Source: a virus. Taken from it: DNA of 64,000 bases. Of the stretch, positions 1,732 through 64,000 are shown one piece after another. A program made the position numbers and the translations under genes. The notes beneath the pieces were generated by a model that worked only from the letters and a program-made list of their open reading frames with translations, ran no database searches and was not told the DNA's origin. Position 1 is the first letter of the stretch, and each line of letters starts with the position of its first letter. The stretch covers positions 24,285 through 88,284 of the IMG/VR virus record IMGVR_UViG_3300030098_002339, one strand, 5' to 3'.

Positions 1732-1850
1732 TGAAAAAGATTAAAGAATCTATTATAGAAATATTTGTTCTTATTTTATACTTCTCATTTTGTTTTCTAA
1801 TATTGATTTTTATTGGAATCTTATGGTTAGTAGATAAACTAATTAAATAA
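1731..1850 (+). CDS. Small membrane protein, 39 aa
   Basis: The start codon overlaps the stop of the preceding gene by one base. The peptide has a Lys-rich start, a long hydrophobic segment (residues ~9-34, Ile/Leu/Phe-rich) and ends DKLIK. It overlaps the convergent oxygenase stop by 8 bases. It is a plausible holin-type or accessory lysis peptide; function unknown. Confidence 0.5.
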   Translation: MKKIKESIIEIFVLILYFSFCFLILIFIGILWLVDKLIK

Positions 1851-2526
1851 TTATTTTAGACTTCTCTTTAGGTTCGTCTTTAGGAGCACCAAATACATTA
1901 AAACTAAATGATCTACGTTCTCCTTTTGTTCTAAAAGGATAAACCATGTGGTACATCCACCATGGAAATATATAATAATCACCAACTTTAGGTCTAATTC
2001 TAACTGTATTTGTAGAAAATAAATGAACTTGTCCAAATTGCATTTCTATTCCACCAGCAGTAGGATAATGATCTTCATCTTCTTTCTTCCACTCTTCCTC
2101 TATACCTTCGGGTAAAGATAGATAACCCACACAAGACATGTGGCAATTAGTATGATAATGCAATGGATTAAAATCACCTGCAAAAGATCTAACATACCAA
2201 CCTGATTTAAATATTACCTTTTGAAGTTCTGCAGCATTATCAGGATGTGCTTCAATATAAGCAGTCATAAGTTTTTGAAAGTATGGAGCCCATTTTTCAA
2301 ATACTTCAGGTGTAATAATTAATTCTTGTTTGACATTACCAACTAAATCATCAGAGAAATCATGAATTTTACTTTTCTCTTTATCAGCAATAATGTTATC
2401 ACAATCTTTATTAAAATCATCTATAAGTTCTTGTGGTAATTTACAATGACCTATTGATGGACCAAATGGTCTATATATTTTAAGTTGTTTATTGTCCTTA
2501 TTTAATTTACTAAAGTGCGTCCCCAT
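1843..2526 (-). CDS. 2OG-Fe(II) oxygenase-like protein (unit A)
   Basis: A 227-residue protein of the 2-oxoglutarate/Fe(II) dioxygenase type common in marine phages. The candidate iron site is H123-x-H125 in NPLHYH, with the distal His in WWMYHMVYP (H193) and a 2OG-binding Arg at 204/205 in GERRSFSFNV, all at the expected spacing of a double-stranded beta-helix fold. The N-terminal ~100 residues are helical. The substrate is unknown. It is the last gene of the leftward cluster, its start overlaps the DUF3310 gene by 17 bases, and it has a close homologue at 45237. Confidence 0.75.
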   Translation of the reverse strand: MGTHFSKLNKDNKQLKIYRPFGPSIGHCKLPQELIDDFNKDCDNIIADKEKSKIHDFSDDLVGNVKQELIITPEVFEKWAPYFQKLMTAYIEAHPDNAAELQKVIFKSGWYVRSFAGDFNPLHYHTNCHMSCVGYLSLPEGIEEEWKKEDEDHYPTAGGIEMQFGQVHLFSTNTVRIRPKVGDYYIFPWWMYHMVYPFRTKGERRSFSFNVFGAPKDEPKEKSKIII

Positions 2527-2758
2527 AATCCCTTTCCATTATCATTTCTAAATAGTGTATAGCTTTTTGTATATCTTTTTGTTTTCCCTTAACCGAATGC
2601 CTACAAATATACTTAATAGCATTCCCTTCTGCAAAGGGTAATTTATTTTCATTAATAAATTCAGCAGGTTCTATCTTAAAAGATTTATAATGATTTCCAT
2701 CTACTTGCTTATTAAGTGAATGATAGGTAACCCCTTTAAACATATCTTTATCTGTCAT
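2510..2758 (-). CDS. DUF3310 protein (SaV-like)
   Basis: An 82-residue protein matching the DUF3310 pattern: a VDGNHYKSFKIEP start, then EGNAIKYICRH and a helical ending that reads KAIHYLEMIMERD. The family is widespread in phages and is often labelled a nucleotide kinase without proof. It lies 2 bases after the 117-residue gene. Homologue at 45904. Confidence 0.8.
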   Translation of the reverse strand: MTDKDMFKGVTYHSLNKQVDGNHYKSFKIEPAEFINENKLPFAEGNAIKYICRHSVKGKQKDIQKAIHYLEMIMERDYGDAL

Positions 2759-2760
2759 AT

Positions 2761-3114
2761 TTAAAATACCAATTTATATCTTTGTGCTTCTCTATTAGGT
2801 CTAGGTACATATTTCTTTTTATTAAGAATAGCCTGTTGTTCATAAGTTAATGAATACTTATCTTCTTTTAACAAAATTTCAACTTTATTTCTAGCTCTAT
2901 ATTCTTCATATCCAGCATAATGAAATACTAAACGAAAGTCTTTAGAATCACTTTTTAACCAATCTATAGCACTCATTTTAGCATATATTCTTTCTTTTCT
3001 ATTACCTAAATATTCAGCATCTAAAAGGGCTTGAACAATTACAGCAAACCACAATTTATTTTCCGCTGATGTCTCTTCCTTTGGTAACAATGGTACTGTC
3101 TGTAGAGTTTTCAT
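2761..3114 (-). CDS. Conserved hypothetical protein, 117 aa
   Basis: Unknown function. Soluble, mixed helical protein with a basic C-terminus ending RYKLVF. Its start lies 59 bases inside the upstream gene; the homologous pair at 46160/46461 overlaps by the same 59 bases, which supports both reading frames. Shared features with the homologue are a WxAVIxQAxxDA stretch near residues 22-33 and an SKDF(K/R)(I/L)VF block. Confidence 0.7.
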   Translation of the reverse strand: MKTLQTVPLLPKEETSAENKLWFAVIVQALLDAEYLGNRKERIYAKMSAIDWLKSDSKDFRLVFHYAGYEEYRARNKVEILLKEDKYSLTYEQQAILNKKKYVPRPNREAQRYKLVF

Positions 3115-3289
3115 CAGATTTAGTTACTTCATAAGTAGTTCTTCTATGTAACATTTGATCTCTATTCCAAACAAAATTATTTAAGTCTAAAGATCTAAAC
3201 GTTTTAAGTGCTTCTTCATCATTAACTGCAGATAAATTAATTTCAGTATATTGAGGATCAAAAACCCAAATTTTAAATTTATAAATCAT
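3056..3289 (-). CDS. Conserved hypothetical protein, 77 aa
   Basis: A small beta-rich protein starting MIYKFKIWV with a TEI(N/Y)LSA stretch and an EEALKTF helix, a pattern seen in short single-sheet domains. The start overlaps the upstream stop by 4 bases (ATGA). Homologue at 46461. Function unknown. Confidence 0.7.
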   Translation of the reverse strand: MIYKFKIWVFDPQYTEINLSAVNDEEALKTFRSLDLNNFVWNRDQMLHRRTTYEVTKSDENSTDSTIVTKGRDISGK

Positions 3290-3612
3290 ATATTATGTTT
3301 ACGTCTACTTGCTTCTAAAGTTCTAAAAAGATCTATTACCATACCTTCTTTATCTCTTTTATTCTCAAGAGTATTTGCTTTAACTTCCGCATCATATATC
3401 TCTTGAACAGCTTTCTGATAATCATCTGATGCATAATATGCCTGTTCTTTGGCAGATATGCTCTTAAGATTACTTTCACCTGTGATAAAGAGAGCTTTCC
3501 TTCTCTTAAGAAGTCTATCCAGGTATTTAACGTTTGCACTTGCTTCCGCACTCTGTTCGTCTGTTTGAGCAAGGTAGGCTAATGCCTTTTCCAATCTGTC
3601 TTCTGTTATCAT
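3286..3612 (-). CDS. Helical conserved phage protein, 108 aa
   Basis: A charged, almost entirely helical protein. Residues ~20-40 (SAEASANVKYLDRLLKRRKA) and the end (LFRTLEASRRKHNI) are nearly the same in the homologue at 46688. A strong AGGAG ribosome site precedes the ATG. Its position next to SSB-like and nuclease genes would suit a DNA-metabolism accessory protein, but nothing in the sequence shows that. Confidence 0.75.
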   Translation of the reverse strand: MITEDRLEKALAYLAQTDEQSAEASANVKYLDRLLKRRKALFITGESNLKSISAKEQAYYASDDYQKAVQEIYDAEVKANTLENKRDKEGMVIDLFRTLEASRRKHNI

Positions 3613-3727
3613 ATTTTATTTCTCCTGTTCTTTTGAAATGAATATACGCTTTACGAACTTCTTTAGTTTTCTGCCAAGTCTCAAAATGGCATATTTCCAA
3701 GAAGAGTTTGAAAAGTTTGTAATCCAT
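3527..3727 (-). CDS. Hypothetical small protein, 66 aa
   Basis: Fills the gap between the 3729 gene (start 2 bases after its stop) and the 108-residue gene, with which it overlaps 86 bases. Starts MDYKLFKLFLEICHFETW; the C-terminal half lies in overlap and may be constrained by the other frame. There is no counterpart in unit B, so this is a weak call. Confidence 0.4.
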   Translation of the reverse strand: MDYKLFKLFLEICHFETWQKTKEVRKAYIHFKRTGEIKYDNRRQIGKGISLPCSNRRTECGSKCKR

Positions 3728-3728
3728 G

Positions 3729-3929
3729 TCATGGAACTAACTTTCCATCTCCTGTCTTACAATAACTTGCCCATACCTGATGACCATTATAATACACTCC
3801 GTCATCAGAACTTTTAGGACTTAACATTTCTACAAATTTATCGTTGCAAGTTTGAGTAGATAATAAAGTTACTGGTACTTTTGCTACTTCTCCGTTTGTT
3901 AAATGAAGTATCATTAATATTGTTTTCAT
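3729..3929 (-). CDS. Small Cys-containing protein, 66 aa
   Basis: Starts MKTILMILHL and has cysteines in TCNDKF and SYCKTG. The protein in the same slot of unit B (47011) also has a TCEEY and a TYCKK, suggesting distant homology of a small disulphide-type or exported protein. A convincing signal peptide is seen only in the unit B version. Function unknown. Confidence 0.55.
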   Translation of the reverse strand: MKTILMILHLTNGEVAKVPVTLLSTQTCNDKFVEMLSPKSSDDGVYYNGHQVWASYCKTGDGKLVP

Positions 3930-3965
3930 AATATATTCCTATATAATTGCTGATTTCCTACCACA

Positions 3966-4048
3966 GACTTGGCAGGGAATTTCACCCCGCCTAGTCATCC
4001 AATTGTCCTCATTTTTTTTATAGAAAGGGAGGAAACCATGAATTGGAT
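3966..4048 (-). promoter_or_regulatory. Stem-loops after the SSB-like gene (unit A)
   Basis: Two nested features lie in the gap downstream of the leftward SSB-like gene. An imperfect hairpin at 3966-3995 pairs GACTTGGC with GCCTAGTC around a G/C core, and an ATCCAATT...AATTGGAT inverted repeat spans 3997-4048. Unit B has different stem sequences in the same gap (47269-47355). Possible attenuator, processing site or mRNA-stabilising element. Confidence 0.5.
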
Positions 4049-4052
4049 TCTA

Positions 4053-4562
4053 TTAAAACGGAGCCTCGTCTCCGTCATATTGAGCATCTAATATCATTCT
4101 TACATATTTATCAATCTGATCAAAGTTTACTTCTTTGCCTGATTGTAAAGATGCTGATAATAAATTACTCATAGTTAATCTATATTTCTCTTTCCATTGT
4201 GATTGCTTATCTACAGGTTTTGATGCTGCAGGTGCTACACTTGGAATAGGTACAGAAGTCGCAACCTGTCCATCTAGCATTTCTACTGATTGAGCAGTTT
4301 GATACCACTTACCATTTTTAGATTGTCTTGGAGGTGCAGCAGTAATCTTAAGTCTAGATCCTTTAGACCAGCCTTCAGCTCCTACAGCTTCTCCATAAAT
4401 AGTCATATCAGTTCCATCATCTTTGGTAACGTAAATACTATATTTACCATTACCTTCTTTAGATGCGAATGCTTTTTTATGACTACATTCAAATGTTTCT
4501 ACATTTTGCATTTTATTTATTCTCCTATTTATATTTTTAACAATTGATCCAAATCGTTGCAT
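4053..4562 (-). CDS. SSB-like / OB-fold DNA-binding protein
   Basis: The long form is 169 residues; an internal start at 4511 gives 152. The core (residues ~20-100 of the long form) has SSB-like beta strands: ETFECSHKKAF, KYSIYVTKDDGTD, GSRLKITA, KWYQTAQSVEML. A Pro/Ala/Ser linker and a helical acidic tail ending DGDEAPF follow; acidic tips are usual in ssDNA-binding proteins. GAGGT precedes the upstream ATG (overlapping the nuclease stop) and AGGAG precedes the internal ATG; both are kept in unit B. It lies directly after the nuclease gene and probably works with it in recombination. OB-fold assignment is inference. Confidence 0.6.
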   Translation of the reverse strand: MQRFGSIVKNINRRINKMQNVETFECSHKKAFASKEGNGKYSIYVTKDDGTDMTIYGEAVGAEGWSKGSRLKITAAPPRQSKNGKWYQTAQSVEMLDGQVATSVPIPSVAPAASKPVDKQSQWKEKYRLTMSNLLSASLQSGKEVNFDQIDKYVRMILDAQYDGDEAPF

Positions 4563-4575
4563 GTTGATTTATACC

Positions 4576-5367
4576 TCATTTCCATGCTTCCATCCAGACC
4601 TTTCTTGCGAATTGCTCAGCACCTGGAGTATATCTCCATCTCCAGTTGTCGAATGTCAAAGGGAACATTCGCACAACGTCTTCTTTGGATCTAGCAATAG
4701 TCAATATATGTTCTATTACTTTGAATGCTTCTATCATTTGTTCAAGATATCCCACTCGATCACCTAGATCTGTAGTGTAGTTATCCCAAGGACTAGCATA
4801 TAACAATAATGCATCCTTTTTAAACAACTCACGATAGAGAAATTGTTGTCTTAAATGTTCAGGTTTAGGGTGATAATTATGATTAATTTTACCCTTCCTA
4901 CCAGCTTTTCTATCAGCAGCTGTAGGAGCATATCTCCATACTTTAGCAGTAGCTTTAGTATCTACAATATAATCTTTAAATTCAAAGTCTAATTTAGCAA
5001 TTATAGGTATTTCAAGACCTGGATACTTACCTTTCCATTCTTTTTGATAGCTTACAATATTACCATATTGTTTCAGTTCTTTTACGAATGCATTAGCTAT
5101 CTGACCAGACCACTCATACTCATCTTCATGAGATTCACCTTGATGGTCTTTTATGTATTTTTCTTTTGAGACATTTATGATATCATCTTCGTTAGTGATT
5201 TGACTCACTAATGCATGATGAGCTGCCTCTTCAGCAGCATGACCCATTTTCATTCTTGCATTCTCTTCAGTTTCGAATCCAAATAATTTATCTATGATCC
5301 ACATTTGCGGACAATCAATAAATGTATTACCTGCGGAAGCTGAATGATGTTCTATTACTTTCAACAT
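4576..5367 (-). CDS. PD-(D/E)XK exonuclease, RecB/Cas4-like
   Basis: A 263-residue nuclease with the order of motifs expected for the RecB-type PD-(D/E)XK superfamily: GHAAEEAAHH (42-51), D127 in AKLDFEF, D136-T-K138 in YIVDTKAT, and QQFLYRE (174-180) for the Q-x-x-x-Y motif. It probably processes DNA ends during phage recombination with the neighbouring SSB-like protein. SD GGAG lies upstream of the ATG. The divergent gene starts only 15 bases away. Homologue at 47875. Confidence 0.8.
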   Translation of the reverse strand: MLKVIEHHSASAGNTFIDCPQMWIIDKLFGFETEENARMKMGHAAEEAAHHALVSQITNEDDIINVSKEKYIKDHQGESHEDEYEWSGQIANAFVKELKQYGNIVSYQKEWKGKYPGLEIPIIAKLDFEFKDYIVDTKATAKVWRYAPTAADRKAGRKGKINHNYHPKPEHLRQQFLYRELFKKDALLLYASPWDNYTTDLGDRVGYLEQMIEAFKVIEHILTIARSKEDVVRMFPLTFDNWRWRYTPGAEQFARKVWMEAWK

Positions 5368-5382
5368 AATTTACTCCTTTCT

Positions 5383-5682
5383 ATGATTATTAATATTCAA
5401 AAGTACTTAAGTTGTACTTATAACATATCCCTTGATACCCTCAAGGGAAAAAAGATTATAAGATCTAGAGATGAATACAAAATATACAATCTCTCTATCT
5501 TATTATCTTGGCTATTAAACCCTACCAAAAGGTATGGGGTTAAGAGCCTTATTGCACGATTTCATGGTTGTAAACATAAAAATCGAGTCTATAGACTATC
5601 TAAACTATATAAGTCTAATTCACGTTTTAAAAATTTTGTAGACACTAACTTAACAAAATATGAAAAAACTAGAAAAACCTGA
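5383..5682 (+). CDS. DnaA domain IV-like DNA-binding protein (putative)
   Basis: A 99-residue basic protein (an upstream in-frame ATG at 5344 would add 13 residues inside the nuclease). The pattern NISLDTLKGKK...R...YNLSILLSWLL...YGVKSLIARFHGCKHKNRVYRL resembles the C-terminal DnaA domain, where a helix-turn-helix and a GxxH-type signature bind DnaA boxes. It could direct host replication proteins to the phage origin, which would suit a phage with no polymerase of its own. No ATPase domain is present. Homologue at 48685. The assignment rests on pattern only. Confidence 0.5.
   Translation: MIINIQKYLSCTYNISLDTLKGKKIIRSRDEYKIYNLSILLSWLLNPTKRYGVKSLIARFHGCKHKNRVYRLSKLYKSNSRFKNFVDTNLTKYEKTRKT
5401..5419. 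promoter_or_regulatory. Conserved palindrome, candidate operator (unit A)
   Basis: AAGTACT-N5-(T/A)GTACTT lies at the start of the rightward gene, about 35 bases upstream of the divergent nuclease start. Unit B keeps it as a perfect inverted repeat at 48703-48721, with high identity including third codon positions. Because the two divergent genes leave almost no intergenic space, a promoter or operator would have to sit inside coding sequence here. Confidence 0.4.
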
Positions 5683-6145
5683 GCTTGTACAAACAATAAT
5701 AGATAAGAAAAAAGTATGGTTAAACATACGTGAATCTCGTCTATTATATATGTTTCATCGTAGGTTAGTATCCTGGGAAGAATACGAAGCAGGATCTAGG
5801 TATCGTTTCATGTGTGAATTACAAGCAGGAAATTCTGGAAATACTTTAAAAGAAAGATTAGATGGCTGTACAACTGATTTCATTCCACTTCAAATAGGTG
5901 CAGCATTAGCCGTTAAAGAAGTAGATGAAGAAATAGGCGAACACCTTGCCAAAATTATGAAGTTATTTTGTTGGTTTAATTATGGTATAATTGAAATAGC
6001 AGATCGTCTAGAAATATCAGAACGTAAAGCATCTAATTATGTACATGAAGGACTAGCAAGATTATCAGTTTATTATGGGTATAAAAAAGTCAGAAATACA
6101 ATCAAAGGACAAGGAACTAAGGTTAAAAGACAAAAAGTATCTTAA
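5660..6145 (+). CDS. DUF6456-like / sigma region 4-like HTH protein
   Basis: A 161-residue protein. The middle has the EYEAGSRYRFMCEL pattern and the C-terminal half has AALAVKEVDEEIGE...LFCWFNYGIIEIADRLEIS, then a helix-turn-helix ending LARLSVYYGY. This matches the alphaproteobacterial and phage DUF6456 layout, whose HTH resembles sigma-70 region 4. A role as transcription regulator, for example a late activator, is plausible. It overlaps the preceding gene by 23 bases. Homologue at 48966. Confidence 0.65.
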   Translation: MKKLEKPELVQTIIDKKKVWLNIRESRLLYMFHRRLVSWEEYEAGSRYRFMCELQAGNSGNTLKERLDGCTTDFIPLQIGAALAVKEVDEEIGEHLAKIMKLFCWFNYGIIEIADRLEISERKASNYVHEGLARLSVYYGYKKVRNTIKGQGTKVKRQKVS

Positions 6146-6500
6146 GTGGGTAGCAAGCCAGGCTTGCATACTTTGTCAAGATGTTCCCTGCCAAGCTCAC
6201 CATATAACCTATGCTCAGCATAGAGGCTTTAGCCAAAAAGTAGGTGATCAATGGACTATACCTTTATGTTTTTTACATCATGATCAGCTACATAGATGTG
6301 GCTTATCTGAACGCAATTTCTGGTTAAAAATAGAGATAGACCCACTACATATAGCAGAAACTTTCTATAAACATAACAAAGATATGTGGAAAAACCCTGA
6401 TTTCTTCTATGATGACTCAATGCTTTGGATTATGGTTTATAACAAACTTGTACCTAAGATTAAGAAACACATTGACTTTATCATGCAACCCAAATTATAG
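6075..6500 (+). CDS. HNH-type / DUF968-like endonuclease
   Basis: A 141-residue protein with zinc and metal ligands CILC (31-34), AHH (41-43) and PLCFLHHDQLH (64-73): the C-x2-C...HH...C-x2-HH arrangement of DUF968/HNH recombination nucleases. The FW after this block is typical of the family. It may resolve junctions or trim DNA during packaging. It overlaps the DUF6456-like gene by 71 bases in another frame, as does the unit B pair. Start codon uncertain because of this overlap. Confidence 0.75.
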   Translation: MGIKKSEIQSKDKELRLKDKKYLKWVASQACILCQDVPCQAHHITYAQHRGFSQKVGDQWTIPLCFLHHDQLHRCGLSERNFWLKIEIDPLHIAETFYKHNKDMWKNPDFFYDDSMLWIMVYNKLVPKIKKHIDFIMQPKL

Positions 6501-6510
6501 AATATAGTAT

Positions 6511-6522
6511 CCTCGCCAGAGG
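6511..6522 (+). promoter_or_regulatory. SD-sequestering hairpin CCTC-GCCA-GAGG
   Basis: A 12-base perfect hairpin whose 3' arm, GAGG, is the only ribosome-binding sequence before the gene at 6535. The same 12 bases and their flanks recur before the unit B gene (49817-49828), although surrounding sequence differs. It could be a translational operator bound by a phage protein or melted by a ribosome arriving from the HNH gene. Confidence 0.55.
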
Positions 6523-6534
6523 TATGAAAAAATT

Positions 6535-6816
6535 ATGGCTAAAATATTTAAATTTCCGTTTAAAAAAGCTAGATATTCTGAGAGCTTTCTTAAGAAAGTA
6601 GATCCTAATAAAATAGGAGACTTTATTTCTAAAGAGCATCCAGATCTTTCTATTAGAGCTGCTGATGCTATGGCATTAGCTGTAATTTATTCTACTTATC
6701 TATCATTGGTATTTGAGGAAGAGGGAAAAAAAGTTCCTGTAGATGTTATGAATAAGTTTGAAGATAACGATTATGCAACATTCATCTGGAACAATGACCC
6801 AAAGACGCTACACTAA
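6535..6816 (+). CDS. Conserved hypothetical protein, 93 aa
   Basis: Small soluble helical protein starting MAKIFKFPFKK, with a conserved RAADAMALAVIYST block near residues 42-55 and FEEEG near 60. Unknown function. Translation start is controlled by the hairpin at 6511-6522. It overlaps the next gene by 23 bases. Homologue at 49839. Confidence 0.7.
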   Translation: MAKIFKFPFKKARYSESFLKKVDPNKIGDFISKEHPDLSIRAADAMALAVIYSTYLSLVFEEEGKKVPVDVMNKFEDNDYATFIWNNDPKTLH

Positions 6817-7075
6817 AAAAAAAAAGAAACCAGTTACTGAGTTTCCTTATAAACCTATTAAAGATAAATTAACCTGGCATGATGCACAATCTGATACTGG
6901 GTGGAAGTCTAAAGATAGCATGGACAGATTAAGACCTGCAATCTCTAAGACTAAAGGATGGATCTATGAGGAAACTGATGAGTATATCAAAACATTTGGA
7001 ACATACTCTATAGATCCTGAAACCAAAGAAATTGAATTTGGGGAAGTACTTTGTATTCCTAAGAATTGGATTTAA
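6794..7075 (+). CDS. Conserved phage protein with W-x-D-A-Q-S motif, 93 aa
   Basis: Start chosen at MTQRRY because unit B has MVQRRY at the same place; a longer frame begins at 6758. A Lys-rich N-terminus is followed by TWHDAQSDTGW, SKTKGWIYEET, and an ending FGEVLCIPKNWI that is nearly unchanged in unit B (50101). The ending looks like a small beta domain. Function unknown. The stop codon lies in the terminator inverted repeat. Confidence 0.7.
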   Translation: MTQRRYTKKKKKPVTEFPYKPIKDKLTWHDAQSDTGWKSKDSMDRLRPAISKTKGWIYEETDEYIKTFGTYSIDPETKEIEFGEVLCIPKNWI

Positions 7076-7151
7076 ACGCTTGACCCCAGATCCAATTGGG
7101 CGAGATCTCTTTAATGCTGAAGACCCAATTAGATCAGGGCTCAAGTTTAAA
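7071..7151. terminator. Long imperfect inverted repeat, bidirectional terminator
   Basis: Between the convergent genes ending at 7075 and 7147 the sequence folds on itself: TTTAAAC...CTTGACCCCAGATCCAATTGGG pairs with a diverged copy ending in CAAGTTTAAA. The arms are about 30 bases with a few mismatches and include both stop codons. A T-run is lacking, so it may act as a transcript end or processing structure rather than a classic intrinsic terminator. Unit B has unrelated sequence here. Confidence 0.6.
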
Positions 7152-7455
7152 TCTGATTAGAATCTTCTGTTCTATTATTATATTGTTCTTCAGGTTTATG
7201 AACAGGGTCAGCTTCTAACGGATTAGTATAAGTTTCTTCAATTGCTTGACCACCCAATTCTATTATTCTTTTCTTTGTAGCATTAATTTCAGCTTTAACA
7301 TGATCTTTCGCATGTTCTAATACTTGAGTTAACTTTGGAAAATTCGTAGGATATATTCCATAAATAGTTAAATCATTAATTGCTGTCGCTACTCTTTGAA
7401 GTCCTCTTTGACGCTTTTCTAGTCTGAGTACTTCGCTGTCTGGAGTTATTTCCAT
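7147..7455 (-). CDS. Conserved hypothetical protein, 102 aa
   Basis: Residues 1-75 (ITPDSE, then LRLEKRQRGLQRVATAINDL, IYGIYPTNFPKL, ATKKRIIELGG) are strongly conserved in unit B (50675); the Pro/Glu-rich tail is not. Helical and charged. Its start lies 80 bases inside the preceding gene in another frame, an overlap kept in unit B. Function unknown. Confidence 0.75.
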   Translation of the reverse strand: MEITPDSEVLRLEKRQRGLQRVATAINDLTIYGIYPTNFPKLTQVLEHAKDHVKAEINATKKRIIELGGQAIEETYTNPLEADPVHKPEEQYNNRTEDSNQI

Positions 7456-7549
7456 CTTCCATCTCCTTTATTTTACGTTTTAGTTTATCTATTTCTAACT
7501 GCTTAGTAGCAACCATTGCTCTAAGTGCGTTTTCGTTTCCATTGCTCAT
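7376..7549 (-). CDS. Small basic coiled-coil protein, 57 aa
   Basis: Starts MSNGNENALR and continues KQLEIDKLKRKIKEME, then a Ser/Arg/Lys tail ending TSKSSDSN. The unit B protein (50856) shares the coil and the tail SRQRxTQxRK...SKSSDSN. The tail overlaps the next gene's start in a different frame. It is short but well supported by comparison. Possible nucleic-acid-binding tail; function unknown. Confidence 0.65.
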   Translation of the reverse strand: MSNGNENALRAMVATKQLEIDKLKRKIKEMEDGNNSRQRSTQTRKASKRTSKSSDSN

Positions 7550-7748
7550 TTATTTGTCCTTCCATTATGTGATCTAAATATTCATATCGATCTTTATATT
7601 CTTTTAACCATTCCTGAATTATCAATGAATGCTTATCATATAAAAATCCACATGCTATAGCATTACTTAACACAGAAATAGATTCTTTACAATCAGCTAA
7701 TTCCTCTTTGGTTTTAGCCATTTCTTCAGCTGGATTAATTGTTATCAT
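7521..7748 (-). CDS. Conserved helical protein, 75 aa
   Basis: Start placed at MITINPAEEM, where AGGAG lies upstream and which matches the unit B start (51064). The conserved core is C-x-ES(I/V)SVL-x-NAIACGFL, then IIQ-x-W(L/I)KEYK. A longer frame starts at 7787 but lacks a ribosome site. Function unknown. Confidence 0.7.
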   Translation of the reverse strand: MITINPAEEMAKTKEELADCKESISVLSNAIACGFLYDKHSLIIQEWLKEYKDRYEYLDHIMEGQINEQWKRKRT

Positions 7749-7855
7749 AATATTATTGCTCCTGTTGCAAATCCAATTGTGAACCATACAATCTCGGTTC
7801 TATAATGTAATGACCAAATATCAAAATCTCTTTTTAGTTTTTCCCATTTATTCAT
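7745..7855 (-). CDS. Small membrane peptide, 36 aa
   Basis: An ATGA overlap at each end links this short gene to both neighbours. The charged N-terminus (MNKWEKLKRDF) is followed by a hydrophobic segment (IVWFTIGFATGAIIL). It is absent from unit B, where the flanking genes overlap directly. Function unknown. Confidence 0.5.
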   Translation of the reverse strand: MNKWEKLKRDFDIWSLHYRTEIVWFTIGFATGAIIL

Positions 7856-8127
7856 ATTTCACCATTCTTTCTTAGTTTATCAACTGTTTTATTAATGATT
7901 TCTTTCATCTTATCATTTTCTCTTAATAACTGATTATTAAGTACTCTAAGATCACCATTTGTTTGTGCATGAGAATCATTAATGTTCATTAGATCTGATA
8001 TTCTACGATCTTTATCCATCAGTTCTATATTATGATTATCTTGTAAAAGACTTATTTGCTTTTTAAGATATTCTATTTCTTTATGAAGATCCTCAAATTC
8101 TTTTAAATCTTTCAATCCTTCATTCAT
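7852..8127 (-). CDS. Coiled-coil protein, 91 aa
   Basis: Almost entirely heptad-like (Leu/Ile spacing with Lys/Glu/Asp/Asn), with a DKDRRISDLMNIN block that is also present in unit B (51276, EKDRRITDLLNIN). No other domain is visible. It probably forms oligomers; partner unknown. Confidence 0.7.
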   Translation of the reverse strand: MNEGLKDLKEFEDLHKEIEYLKKQISLLQDNHNIELMDKDRRISDLMNINDSHAQTNGDLRVLNNQLLRENDKMKEIINKTVDKLRKNGEI

Positions 8128-8504
8128 GCAGCCTCCTCTTCAACTTTTTGATAGACACATACTTTACCTGCAATAAAATCGCCTGGTAAACATTGTCTTC
8201 CAGTTTTTTCTAACCATTTACTCCATGCTTCAGTTATTTTTATATTAACTGTAGGCATATCTTTAAGTTTAGATTCTTCATCCATAAAAAAATCTACATA
8301 ACCATCTTTTCTATTAGATAGTTCTGGCATATATCCAGTAGACATTTGTATTATATCAGTTCCTATTTTCTTATACATCAATTTAAAATTAGGTTTCTCA
8401 TGATGCCAAGTAGTGAACTGCTTTCCGTCTTCATGAAATGTTACTAATTTCCATTGAGGACTCTTACGCTCTTTATTCATTTGACTCATTGATTTATTTT
8501 TCAT
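8124..8504 (-). CDS. DUF3846-like protein
   Basis: Start placed at MKNKSMSQ with GGAG upstream. The C-terminal half holds the family-like features: DEESKLKDMPTVNIKITEAW and PGDFIAGKVCVYQK, plus TGYMP(E/K)(L/Y)SNRKDGY earlier. The unit B homologue (51572) keeps these and lacks the first ~20 residues. DUF3846 proteins are phage-associated with no proven function. Confidence 0.65.
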   Translation of the reverse strand: MKNKSMSQMNKERKSPQWKLVTFHEDGKQFTTWHHEKPNFKLMYKKIGTDIIQMSTGYMPELSNRKDGYVDFFMDEESKLKDMPTVNIKITEAWSKWLEKTGRQCLPGDFIAGKVCVYQKVEEEAA

Positions 8505-8694
8505 TTTTCTCCTTTTTATAAACATCAAATTCATTATTAATTTTATTAAGAATATAATTCATTGCAATAGTGCCACCTAATACAACTAAAGCTTTTTCTT
8601 TATTGTTATATCTATCTGTAAATTCTTTATATTCATCTTCAGACTTTGGAGTCCAAAAGAAATTATTTAAAGTAAATTTAATATTATTTTTCAT
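8494..8694 (-). CDS. Hypothetical small protein, 66 aa
   Basis: A good AGGAG ribosome site precedes the ATG. An aromatic start (KFTLNNFFWTPKSE) precedes a short hydrophobic helix, and it ends KKEKNEK. The final KEKNEK also ends the next gene upstream because both tails are read through near-identical ribosome-site sequence. Not seen in unit B. Confidence 0.55.
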   Translation of the reverse strand: MKNNIKFTLNNFFWTPKSEDEYKEFTDRYNNKEKALVVLGGTIAMNYILNKINNEFDVYKKEKNEK

Positions 8695-8875
8695 TTTTCT
8701 CCTTTTCTAGTGTTAATCTCTCTCCAGTATATGCTTCAGCTTCCATTAACATTTTTAAAGCTGTCATATAATCTTGAAGAGTAGCTCCTTCTTTTAAAAT
8801 TTGAACTCTAATTCTACCGAGTCCACATTTTATAAATTCCTTACCTGCGTAAGGATCTTTTAGTTCTTCACTCAT
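8684..8875 (-). CDS. Hypothetical small protein, 63 aa
   Basis: Starts MSEELKDPYAGKEF with a helical second half (YMTALKMLMEAEAYTG). It overlaps the following gene's start region by 11 bases. No unit B counterpart. Function unknown. Confidence 0.55.
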   Translation of the reverse strand: MSEELKDPYAGKEFIKCGLGRIRVQILKEGATLQDYMTALKMLMEAEAYTGERLTLEKEKNEK

Positions 8876-9062
8876 TTTGCATATTCCTTATATTTGGTTG
8901 TTCTCCACATTTTACGAATATTTTCCATTGTTCTCTATCATCAAAACCTGAAAGATTAAATATATCCATTGCATTTTCATAGTTTTCACAGTTAGTAAAT
9001 AGAAATATATTATGTTTGATATTATGAAATATATATACACTATTTTCATTATCTTTACTCAT
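8868..9062 (-). CDS. Hypothetical small protein, 64 aa
   Basis: Start placed at MSKDNENS, directly after an AGGAG site; the longer frame from 9107 has no such site. Asn/Phe/Ile-rich (HNIKHNIFLFTN), probably a small beta/alpha domain, with two cysteines. Not found in unit B. Confidence 0.5.
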   Translation of the reverse strand: MSKDNENSVYIFHNIKHNIFLFTNCENYENAMDIFNLSGFDDREQWKIFVKCGEQPNIRNMQNE

Positions 9063-9220
9063 TAGTTTATTCTCCTTTTTATATATTTTGCTACTAACTC
9101 GACCCATCTAAACCATTCGTTTATATAGTGTCTTCTTTTACCTTGACGTTCTTTCTCTACAACTCTTAAGGCTTTGTCAGTAGCTTTATTTAACACTCTT
9201 AATTGTTCATCGTTTTTCAT
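9062..9220 (-). CDS. Small basic protein, 52 aa
   Basis: Linked by a one-base stop/start overlap to the next gene and by 4 bases to the previous one. Helical and Lys/Arg-rich, with an amphipathic C-terminal half (HYINEWFRWVELVAKYIKRR). Not obviously present in unit B. It may bind nucleic acid or membranes. Confidence 0.5.
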   Translation of the reverse strand: MKNDEQLRVLNKATDKALRVVEKERQGKRRHYINEWFRWVELVAKYIKRRIN

Positions 9221-9429
9221 TTAAATTTAACTGCTTTCTCTAACTCTTTAACTTTTTCGTTAGTATGTTGCATAATTTTCTTTAAATCTTCTGCAATATT
9301 TTCAATTGAAGAAGTATTTATACTTGCAAATCTTCTTTGCATCTCTTTATAAGCAGCTAATTCACCATGTTTTCTAGCTTCACTATGTAACTCAGTTACA
9401 ATTTGTATTTGTTTTTGTATATCAAACAT
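9217..9429 (-). CDS. Coiled-coil protein, 70 aa
   Basis: Preceded by AAGGA. Two helices are likely: residues 1-35 (MFDIQKQIQIVTEL...) and ~42-68 with regular Leu/Ile/Val spacing. No domain known. The unit B slot holds an unrelated-looking 82-residue protein (52585). Confidence 0.6.
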   Translation of the reverse strand: MFDIQKQIQIVTELHSEARKHGELAAYKEMQRRFASINTSSIENIAEDLKKIMQHTNEKVKELEKAVKFK

Positions 9430-9447
9430 ATTATTCCTTTCAATTTT

Positions 9448-9486
9448 AGGGCTAAAGCCCTACACTAGATAGGGCTTATGCCAGTT
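9448..9486 (-). promoter_or_regulatory. GCCCT/AGGGC stem-loops after stop (unit A)
   Basis: The gap between the 9490 and 9217 genes holds AGGGCT-AA-AGCCCT and AGCCCT-N9-AGGGCT, so two alternative hairpins share the middle arm. On the transcribed strand it reads ATAAGCCCT...AGGGCTTTAGCCCT. The same design occurs at 52973-53008 and 54907-54940. Mutually exclusive pairing is typical of attenuators or processing sites. Confidence 0.6.
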
Positions 9487-9489
9487 TAT

Positions 9490-9777
9490 TTAAGCAACTT
9501 TAGTATTCTTTTCAGATTCAGATATCTCTTCAAGTTTCTTCGCAACTTGTTTAGCATCTCTAATCTTATCTAAAGCAGCATTTGTTGCTATGAATACAGT
9601 AGCTAACATAGATGTTTGATTAAACTGTGGTAACTGTTTGTATCTTGGATCTTTACTTACCATTTCATAAGTTTGGAAGTATTGTTCCATAAACCATCTA
9701 GTCATTCCACCAGTTTTTTCAGCCACTCTGTTTTTCTGACTTGGTTTCATACCATTCTGTGTCTTCGACTTTTCCAT
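9490..9777 (-). CDS. Conserved helical protein, 95 aa
   Basis: The start at MEKSKT sits 6 bases after AGGAG; another ATG lies 6 bases upstream. The C-terminus (KQVAKKLEEISESEK) matches unit B (53018: KDVAAKLEQISETSK), and both contain a short hydrophobic Ala-rich helix before it. It overlaps the previous gene by 59 bases. Function unknown. Confidence 0.65.
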   Translation of the reverse strand: MEKSKTQNGMKPSQKNRVAEKTGGMTRWFMEQYFQTYEMVSKDPRYKQLPQFNQTSMLATVFIATNAALDKIRDAKQVAKKLEEISESEKNTKVA

Positions 9778-9925
9778 TAGCATCTCCTTTCTTTTTTATT
9801 TCAAACGGAAACTCTAATTTAGCAGGCATATTCTTTTGAATACATCTACTTAATCCAATTAGAGCCCTAATAGGAAATGTAAATGATGACACAAGTGTAT
9901 CACCTACTTTTTCTATTCTTTTCAT
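9719..9925 (-). CDS. Conserved protein, 68 aa
   Basis: Starts MKRIEKVGDTLV with a hydrophobic amphipathic helix (FPIRALIGLS). NMPAKLEFPFEIKKK is well conserved in unit B (53271: NMPDRLEMPYEIKKK). It may associate with membranes. Function unknown. Confidence 0.7.
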   Translation of the reverse strand: MKRIEKVGDTLVSSFTFPIRALIGLSRCIQKNMPAKLEFPFEIKKKGDANGKVEDTEWYETKSEKQSG

Positions 9926-10106
9926 ATTGCTCCTTTCGTTTACGTAAACGATGAACTTTCTTCATCGTATCTGACCACTCTTGATCAAATTCTTTCGATC
10001 CAGGAATTGGATCTACGTCAGCCGTGAGCCAATTCCAGGATTTCCTTATCACTACAGCAGAAATGCTATAAGCAATAAATCGAATAAAATTAAAAACTCC
10101 ATTCAT
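9900..10106 (-). CDS. Membrane-anchored conserved protein, 68 aa
   Basis: The N-terminal hydrophobic segment (FIRFIAYSISAVVI) is followed by WNWLTADVDPIPG, unchanged in unit B (53446), then a Lys/Arg-rich helical tail. This indicates a single-pass or monotopic inner-membrane protein with a basic cytoplasmic tail. Function unknown. Confidence 0.7.
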   Translation of the reverse strand: MNGVFNFIRFIAYSISAVVIRKSWNWLTADVDPIPGSKEFDQEWSDTMKKVHRLRKRKEQYEKNRKSR

Positions 10107-10107
10107 T

Positions 10108-55123: not shown

Positions 55124-55145
55124 ATTATCTCCTTTCTGATAATAA

Positions 55146-55173: not shown

Positions 55174-55305
55174 TTAAACTATTTCTTTATTTTCGTCCTT
55201 TAAACTCTTAAAGAACTTATAACTAAACACACCACTTGCTACCATCACTGCTAATTGTATAGAGAGATAGATAGCTAATAGAGTCATTACTATTGTAGTT
55301 AACAT
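55174..55305 (-). CDS. Small membrane protein, 43 aa; first leftward gene (unit B)
   Basis: MLTTIVMTLLAIYLSIQLAVMV followed by a basic and acidic tail. GAAAGGAT precedes the ATG as in unit A (11469). The second membrane gene of unit A (11302) is missing. Confidence 0.6.
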   Translation of the reverse strand: MLTTIVMTLLAIYLSIQLAVMVASGVFSYKFFKSLKDENKEIV

Positions 55306-55686
55306 CTTATCCTTTCCGAGCTCGATTCTATGCTAGAATATAGCTCTTTCTGTGTGACTATTTGATAATCATCAATCAATATCATCAATGTTATCAAGGG
55401 TTAACGAGTGATTCGGTAATCAATATATCAATGGATTTAGCCCAATGTATACCGACTACCGAAGATAAACAAACAACAACAAAATTGTTGTCGATTTCGC
55501 TAGAAATATCGACAACTATTTTAAATAAAAACAAAGACGAATTGCGACAAAGTTGTCGCTAGCAATTCGACTGTCATTTTAATGACGGGTTTGAAATTCA
55601 CCCTGATCACATCGAGATTGATCTCGATTGATCAAATAGGGGGGTTTTGTACAGCAACAACACAACAACGAAAGAAGGAGGAAACT
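55306..55686. promoter_or_regulatory. Divergent structured control region (unit B)
   Basis: Counterpart of 11607-11972 with no gene. Stem-loops at 55318-55346, 55362-55397, 55481-55522, 55538-55569 (nested: GCGACAA-AG-TTGTCGC inside CGAATT...AATTCG) and 55605-55634 (ATCGAGAT-TG-ATCTCGAT), then GGGT...ACCC and ATAGGGGGGTTTT (G6 at 55639-55644). GATTCGGTAATCA is among the few primary-sequence matches to unit A. Confidence 0.7.
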
Positions 55687-57440: not shown

Positions 57441-57817
57441 TGAGTGAAGATAAAACACAAGAAAACAAAGTTGAAACTAAAGAAGAAGGTCCTTTAGACA
57501 AACCTAATTATTGGGGAGTCTTAGGAAGCAAAAAACCTTCTAATAAAGGTGGAAAACGTGAAGGAGCTGGAAGACCATTAGGTTCTAAAAGCACAAAACC
57601 TAAATGGAAATCTATGGATGAGATGTCTGTGAAATATCAACATTCCCCTTTAGATTATATGTTATCTGTGTTAAATAATCCTATGAGCTCACCTGAGAGA
57701 AAGATGTATGCTGCTGAAAAATCAGCTCCATATATTCATCCTAGGTTAGCTTCTTCAACAGCAAGAATAGGATCAGATGAACCAATCGAAATCAAAGTCC
57801 AATGGCAAAAAGATTAA
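57440..57817 (+). CDS. terS: Terminase small subunit-like protein (unit B)
   Basis: A 125-residue homologue of 13554 with an extra acidic N-terminal segment. GGKREGAGRPLGSKSTKPKW and ERKMYAAEKSAPYIHPRLAS are kept. It overlaps terL by 41 bases. Confidence 0.7.
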   Translation: MSEDKTQENKVETKEEGPLDKPNYWGVLGSKKPSNKGGKREGAGRPLGSKSTKPKWKSMDEMSVKYQHSPLDYMLSVLNNPMSSPERKMYAAEKSAPYIHPRLASSTARIGSDEPIEIKVQWQKD

Positions 57818-59075
57818 GCGAATTGAAATTCCTTATAAGCCAAGACCTTATCAATTAGAAGTACACGATAATAAAAAACGATTTAATGTATTAGTCTGTC
57901 ACAGACGATTCGGTAAATCAGTATTATCCATTAACGAATTAATTAAAACCGCAGCAGCAAAACCGAGAGCTCTGCTGGCTTTCATAGCTCCTACCTATAG
58001 ACAAGGAAAATCTATAGCTTGGGAGTATTTAAAATTTTATACGAAACCTCTAATGTATTTTGGAGGAAGTAGGAACGAGACTGAATTAAGAATAGATTTA
58101 TTTAACGGAAGTCGTATTCAAATATTTGGTGCAGATAATCCAGACAGCATCCGTGGATTAGGATTTGACGGAGTGGTTATGGATGAATATGCAATTATGT
58201 CACCTAGAGTTTGGACAGAGATCGTAAGACCTGCTGTATCAGACAAACTAGGATGGGTTATGTTTATCGGAACACCCATGGGACATAATCAATTCTGGGA
58301 AGTCTATGATTACGCCCAACGAGGTCATAAAGACTGGATGGGTAAAATCTATAGAGCCTCAGAAACCAAGGTGATTCCAGACGAGGAGCTGGCGCAGGCA
58401 CGTTCCATAATGACCGAAGAGCAGTATGACCAAGAGTTCGAATGCTCTTTTACTGCAGCGGTCTCAGGAAGTTATTACGGAAGATTAATAACGAAAGCCG
58501 AAAATTCTAGAAGAATCGGATCCGTGCCTGTGGATAGTAACGTAGGTGTAGAAACGTGGTGGGATTTAGGTATAGGTGACTCAACAGCAATTTGGTTTGC
58601 TCAACGAGTGGGAAAAGAAATACACCTTATAGATTATTATGAAACTTCAGGAGAATCTTTAGCACACTATGCAGATAAACTTGAAGAAAAAGGATATGCT
58701 TATTCTAATCACATAGCTCCACACGATATAATGGCTAGAGAATTAGGAACAGGTAAATCAAGAATGGAAGTTGCTAATGAATTGGGTATTGATTTTGAAG
58801 TAGCTCCTAAGTTAGAAGTAGATCACGGAATTGAATCTGTGAGAAATTTATTACCACATTGTTATTTTGATAGAGAAAAATGTAAACTAGGATTAGATGC
58901 ATTAAGACAATATCGAAAACAATGGGATGATAAAAACCAAGTGTTTAAAAATAAACCTCTACACGATTGGTGTTCTCATGCAGCTGACGCATTTCGATAT
59001 GGCTGTGTATCTGAACCGATTGATATGACGGAGTGGAATAAACCAATTAAAGTAGATACCAAATATATAGTATGA
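57777..59075 (+). CDS. terL: Terminase large subunit (unit B)
   Basis: 432 residues with all motifs of 13813 intact (CHRRFGKS; GVVMDE; WWDLGIGDST; HDWCSHAADAFRYG). Few amino-acid changes, but many silent base changes. Packaging motors of the two units would be nearly equivalent. Confidence 0.95.
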   Translation: MNQSKSKSNGKKIKRIEIPYKPRPYQLEVHDNKKRFNVLVCHRRFGKSVLSINELIKTAAAKPRALLAFIAPTYRQGKSIAWEYLKFYTKPLMYFGGSRNETELRIDLFNGSRIQIFGADNPDSIRGLGFDGVVMDEYAIMSPRVWTEIVRPAVSDKLGWVMFIGTPMGHNQFWEVYDYAQRGHKDWMGKIYRASETKVIPDEELAQARSIMTEEQYDQEFECSFTAAVSGSYYGRLITKAENSRRIGSVPVDSNVGVETWWDLGIGDSTAIWFAQRVGKEIHLIDYYETSGESLAHYADKLEEKGYAYSNHIAPHDIMARELGTGKSRMEVANELGIDFEVAPKLEVDHGIESVRNLLPHCYFDREKCKLGLDALRQYRKQWDDKNQVFKNKPLHDWCSHAADAFRYGCVSEPIDMTEWNKPIKVDTKYIV

Positions 59076-61222
59076 AATCAGAAAAAGAAATATTAGCAAT
59101 ATTAGGAAAAGAATTACATAACGCTTCTGGATTTATTGGAGGCGAATTAGTTGCTCGAAGGAAAAAATCCTTAGAGTACTACCTAGGAATGCCATTAGGG
59201 AACGAACAAGAAGGTCGTTCTCAAGTGGTATCTAATGATGTATTAGATACAGTTGAAAGCCTCATGCCATCTTTAATGAGAATCTTTACAGCTGGCGATA
59301 ATGTATTTAATTGTGAAGGTGTTGGACCAGAAGACGATGAAATGGCACGTCAATGTTCCGATTACCTTAATTATATTTTTTATAAAGAGAACAATGGATT
59401 TGTAGCTCTTTATTCTGCATTTAAAGATGCATTGATCCAAAAGAATGGAATCTTAAAAGTTTATTGGGATGATTCTCAGAAAACTGAAAGAGAAGAATAT
59501 ACAAGATTAACGGATGATGAATTTAATGATCTCGTTGCAGATCCTCAAGTTAAAGTTAAAAATCATTCAGAATACGAAGAACCAATAACGGATGATCGTG
59601 GTAAAGAAATTGATAAAGTTGCTTTACACGATGTTGTTATTCATAGAACAAGATTGTACGGACAGGTTAAAATTGAACCAGTTCCTCCAGAAGAATTTTT
59701 AATTGAACGTAGATGTAAATCTATTGATGCTTCCCATTTTGTTTGTCATCGAACAACAAAAACAAGAACAGAACTTATTGAAATGGGTTTTCCCAAAGAT
59801 GTCGTAGAAGGATTACCTGCAGGCGATGCAGATTATTTTACGGAAGATAAGTTTGTTAGACATCAAAATATTGACCTACAGCACGGAGCTGCTGATGGAG
59901 ATAAAGGCACAACAGATATTACAGTTCATGAATGTTATATTAACATTGATGTTAATGAAGATGGTAAATCAGAATTAGTTAAAATCATTACAGCAGGTAG
60001 CGGTACTGGTAAAATTCTAGATTTAGAAGAAGTTGATACTATACCATTTATATCAATGACACCCGTTATTATGCCACACAGATTTCATGGCAGATCTGTG
60101 TCGGAATTAGTAGAAGACATCCAACTTATTAAGTCTACTGTTATGAGACAAATGTTAGATAATATGTATCTAACAAACAATAACAGAGTTGCAGTACAAG
60201 ATGGTCAAGTTGCAATGGATGATCTTCTAACTAACCGACCAGGTGGAATCGTAAGAACAAAACAACCTCCTCAAAATGTTATGATGCCTATTCAGGCACA
60301 ACCAATTACGGAACAAGCTAGTGGAATGTTAGCTTATCTAGATTCTGTTAAAGAAACTAGAACAGGGGTTACAAGACAATCCCAGGGGCTAGATGCTGAT
60401 ACCTTAAATAAAACAGCAACTGGACAAAACCAAATTCTGACACAATCACAAATGAGAATGGAGTTAATTGCCAGGATCTTTGCTGAAACAGGTGTTAAGG
60501 ATCTAGCTTTAAAAATATTTGAATTGGTATGCAAGTATCAACAAAAGGAAAAGATAGTAAGAATTAGAGGAAAATACATTCCTATGAGACCTTATGAATG
60601 GAAAGACAGAGTAAATGTTACTGTTCAAGTAGGTTTAGGTACAGGTTCTAAAGAACAACAGCTAATTTTATTAAATGCAATCTTAGAAAGACAAATGCAG
60701 GCAATAAACTTACAACAAAATGTCTATGGACCTATGGTAAACCTTAGAAATGTATACAATAGTTTAAAAAAATTAATAGAAAATGCTGGATTGAACGGAA
60801 TTGAGCCATTTTTCATGGATCCTGACGTTGGTGCAGCACAAATGCCACAACTTCCACCTAAACCACCAACAGAATTTGAAAAAGTGACGTTGGCTCAGGT
60901 TCAAGGTGAAAATCAGCGTGAACAATTGAAAGCTGAAGTAAGATTAAAAGAAGTTGAAGGTAGAATGAGACAACAATTGCTTGATTTTGAGATAAAAATT
61001 AAAGAATTAGAACTTAAATACGGATCTAAAATCGATGAACTTGAATTGAAACGTAGAACTATGTTAGAAGAAGTAGATCTTCAAAAATCTGGAGATTTAA
61101 TGAAAGAAATAGTGAAAGGACAACAACAATTCTTTAATGATGGACAAGCTAGAAACACAGCTGCGAAGGGGAAAGAGAGCCCAGGTGCTGCTAGACGATC
61201 CCCTGCTAAAGCAAGGGTTTAA
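59072..61222 (+). CDS. Portal protein (unit B)
   Basis: 716 residues, homologue of 15117. Differences cluster around residues 215-320 and in the last 40; the portal core (RPGGIVRTKQPPQNVMMPIQ) is unchanged. ATGA overlap with terL. Confidence 0.9.
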   Translation: MKSEKEILAILGKELHNASGFIGGELVARRKKSLEYYLGMPLGNEQEGRSQVVSNDVLDTVESLMPSLMRIFTAGDNVFNCEGVGPEDDEMARQCSDYLNYIFYKENNGFVALYSAFKDALIQKNGILKVYWDDSQKTEREEYTRLTDDEFNDLVADPQVKVKNHSEYEEPITDDRGKEIDKVALHDVVIHRTRLYGQVKIEPVPPEEFLIERRCKSIDASHFVCHRTTKTRTELIEMGFPKDVVEGLPAGDADYFTEDKFVRHQNIDLQHGAADGDKGTTDITVHECYINIDVNEDGKSELVKIITAGSGTGKILDLEEVDTIPFISMTPVIMPHRFHGRSVSELVEDIQLIKSTVMRQMLDNMYLTNNNRVAVQDGQVAMDDLLTNRPGGIVRTKQPPQNVMMPIQAQPITEQASGMLAYLDSVKETRTGVTRQSQGLDADTLNKTATGQNQILTQSQMRMELIARIFAETGVKDLALKIFELVCKYQQKEKIVRIRGKYIPMRPYEWKDRVNVTVQVGLGTGSKEQQLILLNAILERQMQAINLQQNVYGPMVNLRNVYNSLKKLIENAGLNGIEPFFMDPDVGAAQMPQLPPKPPTEFEKVTLAQVQGENQREQLKAEVRLKEVEGRMRQQLLDFEIKIKELELKYGSKIDELELKRRTMLEEVDLQKSGDLMKEIVKGQQQFFNDGQARNTAAKGKESPGAARRSPAKARV

Positions 61223-62447: not shown

Positions 62448-63389
62448 ATGGCACAACCAACAAATACGTTTGATACGTATGATTCCATTGGAGAACGTGA
62501 AGATCTGTCAGATGTTATTTATAACATCTCGCCAACTGACACACCATTCCTTAGCTCTGCAGCTAAAACAAAAGCTACAGCAGTTTTACACGAATGGCAA
62601 ACTGACAGTTTGGCATCAGCTTCAACATCCAATGCTGTAATCGAAGGTGACGAAGCAACTTTAGACGCTGTTACTGCAACAACTAGATTATCTAACTCTT
62701 GTCAAATTATGGACAAAACAGTTGTAATCACAGGTACGCAGGAAGTAGTTGATAAAGCTGGAAGAGCTTCTGAACTAGCTTACCAAATCGCTAAAAAGTC
62801 AAAAGAGCTTAAAAGAGACTTGGAAGCACAACTAACAACAAACAACGCTGAAGTAACAGGTAATGCTACAACAGCAAGAGAAATGGGTTCATTAAGAGCA
62901 TGGGTTGCTACTAATGACGTAATGGGAACTTCTGGAACTTCAGGAGCAGCAGGTAATACTGCAGCAACTGATGGAACTCAAAGAGCTTTCACAGAATCTC
63001 TCTTGAAATCTGTAATTAAATCAGTATGGAACGAAGGTGGAAACCCAACTATGATTATGGTTGGACCTTTCAATAAACAAAAATTGTCAGGATTCACTGG
63101 TAACAGTACTAGATTCGATGCAGGTGCTGATGCAACCTTATACACATCAGTAGATGTTTACGCTTCTGACTTCGGTCAACTTCAAGTAGTACCTAACAGA
63201 TTCTCTAGAGATAGAGATGCTTGGGTATTAGACATGGATTATTGGGGAGTAGCTTTCTTAAGAGACTTTTCAATGCATGAATTGTCAAAAACTGGAGACT
63301 CAGAGAAAAGACAACTAATTCTAGAAGCGACTCTAGAATCTAGAAATGAAGCTGCAAGCGGCTGCGTAGCTGACTTAACAACTTCATAA
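62448..63389 (+). CDS. Major capsid protein (unit B)
   Basis: 313 residues, same length as 18496, with few substitutions (for example RAKELK to KSKELK). Long identical DNA runs are present in the middle of the gene. Confidence 0.9.
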   Translation: MAQPTNTFDTYDSIGEREDLSDVIYNISPTDTPFLSSAAKTKATAVLHEWQTDSLASASTSNAVIEGDEATLDAVTATTRLSNSCQIMDKTVVITGTQEVVDKAGRASELAYQIAKKSKELKRDLEAQLTTNNAEVTGNATTAREMGSLRAWVATNDVMGTSGTSGAAGNTAATDGTQRAFTESLLKSVIKSVWNEGGNPTMIMVGPFNKQKLSGFTGNSTRFDAGADATLYTSVDVYASDFGQLQVVPNRFSRDRDAWVLDMDYWGVAFLRDFSMHELSKTGDSEKRQLILEATLESRNEAASGCVADLTTS

Positions 63390-63400
63390 TAATATAACAA

Positions 63401-63440
63401 ATGCGTAGGCGGGTAACCTCAAATTCTACCCGCCTTGCAT
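63401..63440 (+). terminator. Stem-loop after capsid gene (unit B)
   Basis: ATGC..AGGCGGGTA-N11-TACCCGCCT.GCAT, a stem of 9 perfect pairs plus 4 outer pairs. Counterpart of 19454-19483 with different bases. Confidence 0.65.
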
Positions 63441-63496
63441 CCTAATTAACATTGAAGTCTTGAGAGGGGTTAAAGGCGGAACAATGAGGAAACAAA

Positions 63497-63844
63497 ATGA
63501 GAACATTAAACGACTACTTTTTACACGCAGCAATCGCAGACATTAGTACAGCATCATCAACATTCGTGCCTGTACCTGATGGAGGCAAAGTAATAAAAAT
63601 TATAACTGCTCTTCAAGGAGCAATTGGTACAGCTAATGGCGGAATTTCTTTTGAAATTGGTGGAACAGCAATAACTGGTGGCGGGATTACAGTAACACAA
63701 TCTGGATCTGCTGCTGGAGATGTTGATACAGCAGAACCAACTGCAGCTAACGAAGTTGCTGAAGATGGAACTATTGAAATGATAACTGACGGAGCTTCTA
63801 GCAACACAGTTAAACTCAACGTAACATTTGTTATAAGAAGATAA
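63497..63844 (+). CDS. Head decoration-like protein, 115 aa (unit B)
   Basis: Differs from 19546 at two residues only (D/E near 88 and A/T near 103). Most of the gene is identical in DNA, unlike the early genes. Confidence 0.65.
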   Translation: MRTLNDYFLHAAIADISTASSTFVPVPDGGKVIKIITALQGAIGTANGGISFEIGGTAITGGGITVTQSGSAAGDVDTAEPTAANEVAEDGTIEMITDGASSNTVKLNVTFVIRR

Positions 63845-63851
63845 TTAATTC

Positions 63852-63871
63852 AGGGGATGGAAACATCCCCT
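63852..63871 (+). promoter_or_regulatory. Stem-loop between virion genes (unit B)
   Basis: AGGGGATG-GAAA-CATCCCCT, a perfect 8-bp stem with a GNRA tetraloop. Counterpart of 19902-19936. Confidence 0.6.
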
Positions 63872-63891
63872 AAACAAAAGGAGAACAAAAT

Positions 63892-64000
63892 ATGAACTAT
63901 GGTTTAAGACATGGGACTGTGCATAAGCTAACTTCTGGAAGTTCATCTTCTGCAAGTTCAGCTTTTTCAGCTAATATAGAATATATAAGAGTTGTAGGCA
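63892..64000 (+). CDS. Small virion-like protein, N-terminal part (cut by window end)
   Basis: Starts MNYGLRHGTVHKL after AAGGAGA. The 109 bases visible differ from 19958 at one position. The rest lies outside the window. Confidence 0.65.
   Translation, partial: MNYGLRHGTVHKLTSGSSSSASSAFSANIEYIRVVG

Follow-up and report, generated by a model that had tools for sequence, protein, structure and literature searches.

Does an 88-kb virus record that holds two versions of one phage genome represent a single virus, or have the genomes of two viruses been strung together during assembly? The record in question, IMGVR_UViG_3300030098_002339, has 88,284 bases. The window considered here, meaning the whole stretch of DNA that was analyzed, is 64,000 nucleotides long and corresponds to bases 24285-88284 of that record (coordinates of the full record are given below as contig positions). 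A preliminary description of the window had posed the choice between a stably joined form, be it a dimer, an array or a recombinant, and two strains bridged by an assembler. A dimer, if true, would let related phages travel together in a novel way. Our results strongly support bridging and do not support the joined form, on account of the closure of each unit on itself, a 25-base word at the switch between the units and an allele of a third strain. We hold with very high confidence that assembly merged the complete genomes of two related marine phages that occur together, A of 44,175 bp and B of 43,934 bp, into a chimeric record.

Layout of the record

Comparison of the whole 88,284-base record with itself showed two diverged versions of a phage genome, A and B, lying head to tail, which bears out what had been proposed from the window. 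The last 19.9 kb of A fill window positions 1-19943 (contig 24285-44227), with the rest of A (contig 1-24284) lying outside the window, and B fills window positions 19969-64000 (contig 44253-88284). The collinear A/B blocks were found at offsets of 43.3-45.1 kb and, when summed by hand, amounted to ~29 kb of the 44-kb unit. The units of a replicative concatemer would be identical, whereas A and B were only 72-86% identical in blocks longer than 1 kb, and some shorter blocks were as low as 68%.

The gene complements of the two units were compared using a mechanical set of 154 ORFs of at least 50 aa (79 in A and 75 in B). Reciprocal best hits connected 58 A/B pairs. The strand was the same in all 58, and so was the order except for one pair, which falls in a run of repeated paralogues. 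The stronger claim that every gene from the oxygenase at window position 45237 onward has a counterpart was correct for 31 of the 40 B ORFs in this part; the other 9 had no reciprocal best hit. Two major head genes are present in the record (contig 42780-43718 and 86732-87670), and their proteins are 93% identical.

One explanation of this layout is a hetero-dimeric genome or tandem array, made up of two stably linked, related phages that are passed on as one 88-kb unit. It would be in keeping with the continuity of the record, which has zero N letters in 88,284 bases, and with the full set of matching genes in both units. The closures and the related records described below make such a unit extremely unlikely.

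Closure of the two units and the join between them

The start, the middle and the end of the record correspond to one genome position, at which a 92-aa gene begins; this gene is the second to follow the major head gene. The word found here in the middle of the record (window 19944-19968, + strand) has 25 bases that are identical in A and B, including a ribosome-binding-like stretch and the start codon ATG at 19958, and it is at this word that the path turns from A to B. The three occurrences of the word, at contig 53, 44228 and 88162, were aligned. The junction had earlier been placed at window position 45236, but this position lies in the interior of B: a separate contig, 3300030329_003392, matches B over contig 66269-72277 at 99.98% identity and runs straight across it. 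The start of a unit at the oxygenase at 45237 was likewise discarded. The reader of the window saw the right-hand 64 kb only, and both ends of the record lie at the genome position of the join.

Each unit closes on itself within the record. For A, the 77 bases of window 19892-19968 (+ strand; contig 44176-44252) are exactly those of contig 1-77, giving a unit of 44,175 bp. For B, window 19944-20066 (+ strand; contig 44228-44350) agrees in 122 of 123 bases with the last 123 bases of the record (contig 88162-88284), giving a unit of 43,934 bp; exact repeats of 37 bases (44228/88162) and 85 bases (44266/88200) flank the single mismatch. At the end of the record (window 63878-64000, + strand) the word is preceded by B-left sequence and followed by B-right sequence again, and the same B-to-B path is present in contig 3300030329_001194. 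One record carries the A-to-A closure in its first 77 bases, the A-to-B switch in its middle and the B-to-B closure in its last 123 bases, which is the figure-eight pattern of an assembly graph in which two closed paths meet in common sequence. The unit lengths were argued from these closures and from HTVC106P, a named relative described below.

An exact end repeat of 10-2999 bases was sought on the full record and was absent, because the record begins in A and finishes in B. The missing end repeat was dropped as evidence against closure once both ends had been compared with the middle. According to a passage of the CheckV paper, a circular template gives a contig whose terminal repeats have the length of the assembler k, the values named being 55, 77 and 99 (PMC8116208). 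A value of k = 77 agrees with the overlap of A but not with that of B, which is exact over 85 bases. An attempt to identify the assembler from the overlap lengths of 77 and 85 was abandoned since only 77 is a common k.

Two neighboring prophages in one host chromosome could also bring related phages into head-to-tail order. The preliminary description had seen no integrase and no host borders. Integrase family PF00589 gave 0 matches in the whole record, with 14 of 14 control genomes positive. The record has no host-like flank either, its two ends being phage sequence from a single position in the phage genome. As both units also close on themselves, an origin from tandem prophages is vanishingly unlikely.

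Separate contigs and related records

Contigs separate from the record were examined by scanning the 25-base word across IMG/VR, which gave 12 contigs. In 3300030117_000282, A-left is joined to A-right, at 99.5% and 99.6% identity on the two sides (99.4% further left). In the 23,122-bp contig 3300030329_001194 (L092/L102), B-left is joined to B-right, at 100% and 99.9%, and the contig continues along B to contig 66539 at 99.97-100% (99.97% over contig 44253-55417). The join is kept within type by L100/L104 (A to A) as it is by L092/L102 (B to B). Both closures are found within the record and again in contigs apart from it, and nothing here calls for a dimeric virus.

Further contigs of dataset 3300030329 follow one unit or the other. 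Contig 3300030329_000463 matched A at 99.8-99.9% over contig 13356-31809, apart from ~120 additional bases near 31370, and at ~97% over contig 7862-13507 and 31363-32803. Contig 3300030329_004182 matched B at 99.6% over contig 82940-87680. At an identity of at least 99%, the contigs of this dataset cover ~18.5 kb of A, which is the computed 19,282 minus 828 bases of run-through alignment, and 33.4 kb of B (33,370 of 44,032 bases), so that the cover is partial for both. The separate A-type and B-type contigs show that A and B coexist in one dataset. A scan of loci for a match of at least 97% to both A and B flagged L102 alone. It was rejected as a mixed A and B contig, since the flag came from a single alignment through the join and its first 933 bases are 100% B.

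A stably propagated 88-kb unit is difficult to reconcile with closure of each unit on itself both in the record and in separate contigs. The sizes of the relatives also speak against it: the longest among those listed has 39,272 bases, compared to 88,284 for the record. The lists comprise 80, 12, 80, 54, 53 and 80 entries that overlap, three of them being the best 80 of 512, 124 and 473, and they may omit records very near the window's own. Among 13 records picked as longest or nearest, the major head gene was present as a single copy in 12 (truncated by a record end in one of these) and absent from one. The lack of PF00589 matches is a further point against a joined form, and a hetero-dimer would account for nothing that an assembly chimera leaves open.

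Strain C and the exchanged gene

The location of the switch cannot be understood from the length of the word alone, because longer exact words of 86, 86 and 81 bases are common to A and B elsewhere, as compared to 25 at the join. The switch at this short word is instead probably due to the allele carried by a third strain. Contig L097 (IMGVR_UViG_3300020473_000514), from another dataset, holds the whole A-to-B switch unchanged over 258 bases (window 19879-20136, + strand), as an exact extension of 65 + 25 + 168 bases. The flanks of this contig are A-like on both sides, at 97-100% per 60-nt bin with one bin at 88%. From the word on, ~300 nt comprising the 92-aa gene are 95-100% B-like, after which the sequence is that of A again. 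The 92-aa gene (window 19958-20236, + strand), of which the window holds the B allele, appears to be exchanged as a cassette among natural strains that are otherwise A-like or B-like and has two very different alleles that are 57-72% alike per 60 nt (window 19944-20243). L097 represents a natural strain, C, with an A-type genome that carries the B allele of the 92-aa gene.

Strain C offers much longer stretches of common sequence than the 25 bases of A and B. Its match to A is exact over the 90 bases that finish with the word, and its match to B is exact over 155 bases, starting at the 14th base past the word. Both lengths exceed 77, and shared sequence of this extent suffices to lead an assembler astray. 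The join carries the base of C at position 13 after the word, unlike the B closure in the record or in 3300030329_001194, although this base is not unique to C and is also found in the B-type contig L099.

These observations are consistent with the following course of events. Among the reads, A and B would each be terminally redundant, permuted or circular, which would let the assembly path close on itself. At the end of A the assembler would have taken a C-like allele and then slipped into B within the 155 bases common to C and B. The outcome would be A followed by B, a figure-eight walk with both record ends at one genome position. Strain C, whose contig comes from a different dataset, would also have been present in the window's own sample.

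When the left and right sides of the word were typed in the 12 contigs, AA was found in 4, AB in 4, BB in 3 and BA in 1; for L090 and L101, which are less closely related, the type is that of the nearest match. The occurrence of all four combinations indicates that recombination at the word is likely real in the population, and the gene after the word appears to be swapped among strains as a cassette, provided that the 12 contigs are sound. The four combinations would also suit a transient mixed concatemer, formed on coinfection by A and B through recombination in the 25-base word or nearby homology during replication. However, the allele combination of strain C already supplies the junction, and a mixed concatemer alone leaves unexplained that both record ends share the genome position of the join. 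We consider this origin of the record very unlikely. An equally slim chance is given to the idea that a minority of real molecules are 88-kb A-B hetero-dimers, produced when genomes recombine where the 92-aa gene begins, a spot prone to exchange, and perhaps packaged or carried over. In our preferred explanation, an assembly chimera, the exchange of this single gene is ordinary phage mosaicism and probably what misled the assembly.

Implications for database records

The apparent double genome is almost certainly not a new kind of virus but two ordinary phage genomes strung together. The mean k-mer copy number of the record was 1.04 for k 15 and 1.02 for k 21. Since its k-mers are on average close to single-copy and its ends differ, the record would probably be accepted as one large phage genome by filters designed to catch identical copies or end repeats. 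A k-mer flag of the CheckV kind would probably miss it, as judged from the k-mer counts and not from a CheckV run.

Concatenated contigs in IMG/VR have been described before. In the part of the CheckV paper that concerns them, contigs that carry 2.0 to 6.8 copies of a single genome are deemed probable artefacts (PMC8116208). The present record resembles the contigs described there in having about twice the genome length, head-to-tail copies and an end overlap equal to a common k (77). It differs from them in holding two different strains, whereas those contigs are described as one genome repeated, with a k-mer frequency >1. An excerpt of an in silico virome benchmark reports that chimeric contigs occur and cites co-existing similar viruses as a cause (PMC5610896). 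The record is like the chimeras of that excerpt in that one contig is derived from two distinct genomes with similar regions, and differs in that it holds two complete genomes. There may be more such two-strain concatenations in the database. The natural exchange of a one-gene cassette is the modest biology that is left over, and it points to neat, cassette-like swapping of single structural-region genes among marine phages of this group.

Gene content and relatives of A and B

The gene set is that of a tailed phage and includes a terminase, portal, scaffold, major head protein, virion structural proteins, a metallophosphoesterase and a 2OG-Fe(II) oxygenase; one further gene product matches endolysin and tail-protein families. 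The oxygenase of A (window 1843-2526, - strand) matched phrog_81 and PF13759, and that of B (window 45237-45917, - strand) is its reciprocal best hit at 88% aa identity. The large terminase subunit of A (window 13813-15120, + strand; phrog_2 / phrog_2472) has its reciprocal best hit in B at 57777-59075 with 93% aa identity. It is followed in A by the portal gene (window 15117-17270, + strand; phrog_1216, E 6e-170), with a reciprocal best hit in B at 59072-61222 (89% aa), and by the major head gene (window 18496-19437, + strand; phrog_1328), with the B copy at 62448-63389. Pfam searches gave no match for 8 of the 10 proteins tried, and one of the remaining two was far below the Pfam cut-off.

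In searches with the portal, the oxygenase, the terminase-to-head block and the join, the best-ranked named relative was Pelagibacter phage HTVC106P (MN698244.1, 36,945 bp), which was the sole match (1 record) of the named-phage search at the join region. The portal has 51.7% aa identity to that of HTVC106P over 97% of its length, the oxygenase has 41.4% aa identity, and the DNA of the terminase-to-head block is 67.8% identical over 40% of 7.9 kb. HTVC106P differs in that A and B are ~7 kb longer and have little DNA identity in common with it. By the homology of the portal and the terminase-to-head block, A and B are best regarded as distant relatives of HTVC106P. In a passage of a published analysis the HTVC106P terminase is placed near, yet outside, Ubiqueviridae (PMC10504331).

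Some parts of the two units are particular to one of them or rich in repeats. A run of three ORFs in A (contig 23733-26015) has no reciprocal best hit in B. For the first of these ORFs the sole match, to a putative bacteriocin family, was below the threshold. The run also contains a 475-aa ORF (window 39-1466), for which PHROGs and Pfam searches gave no match; ~78 bases of it resemble another site in B (contig 81238-81315) at 79%. In B, three long adjacent genes at window 25132-30059 all match phrog_27227, a family of unknown function, and a run of genes similar to this trio is found in A at contig 5023-9996. These regions contain many short DNA repeats, both within and between the units, and the phrog_27227-type genes possibly encode fast-diversifying tail or surface proteins.
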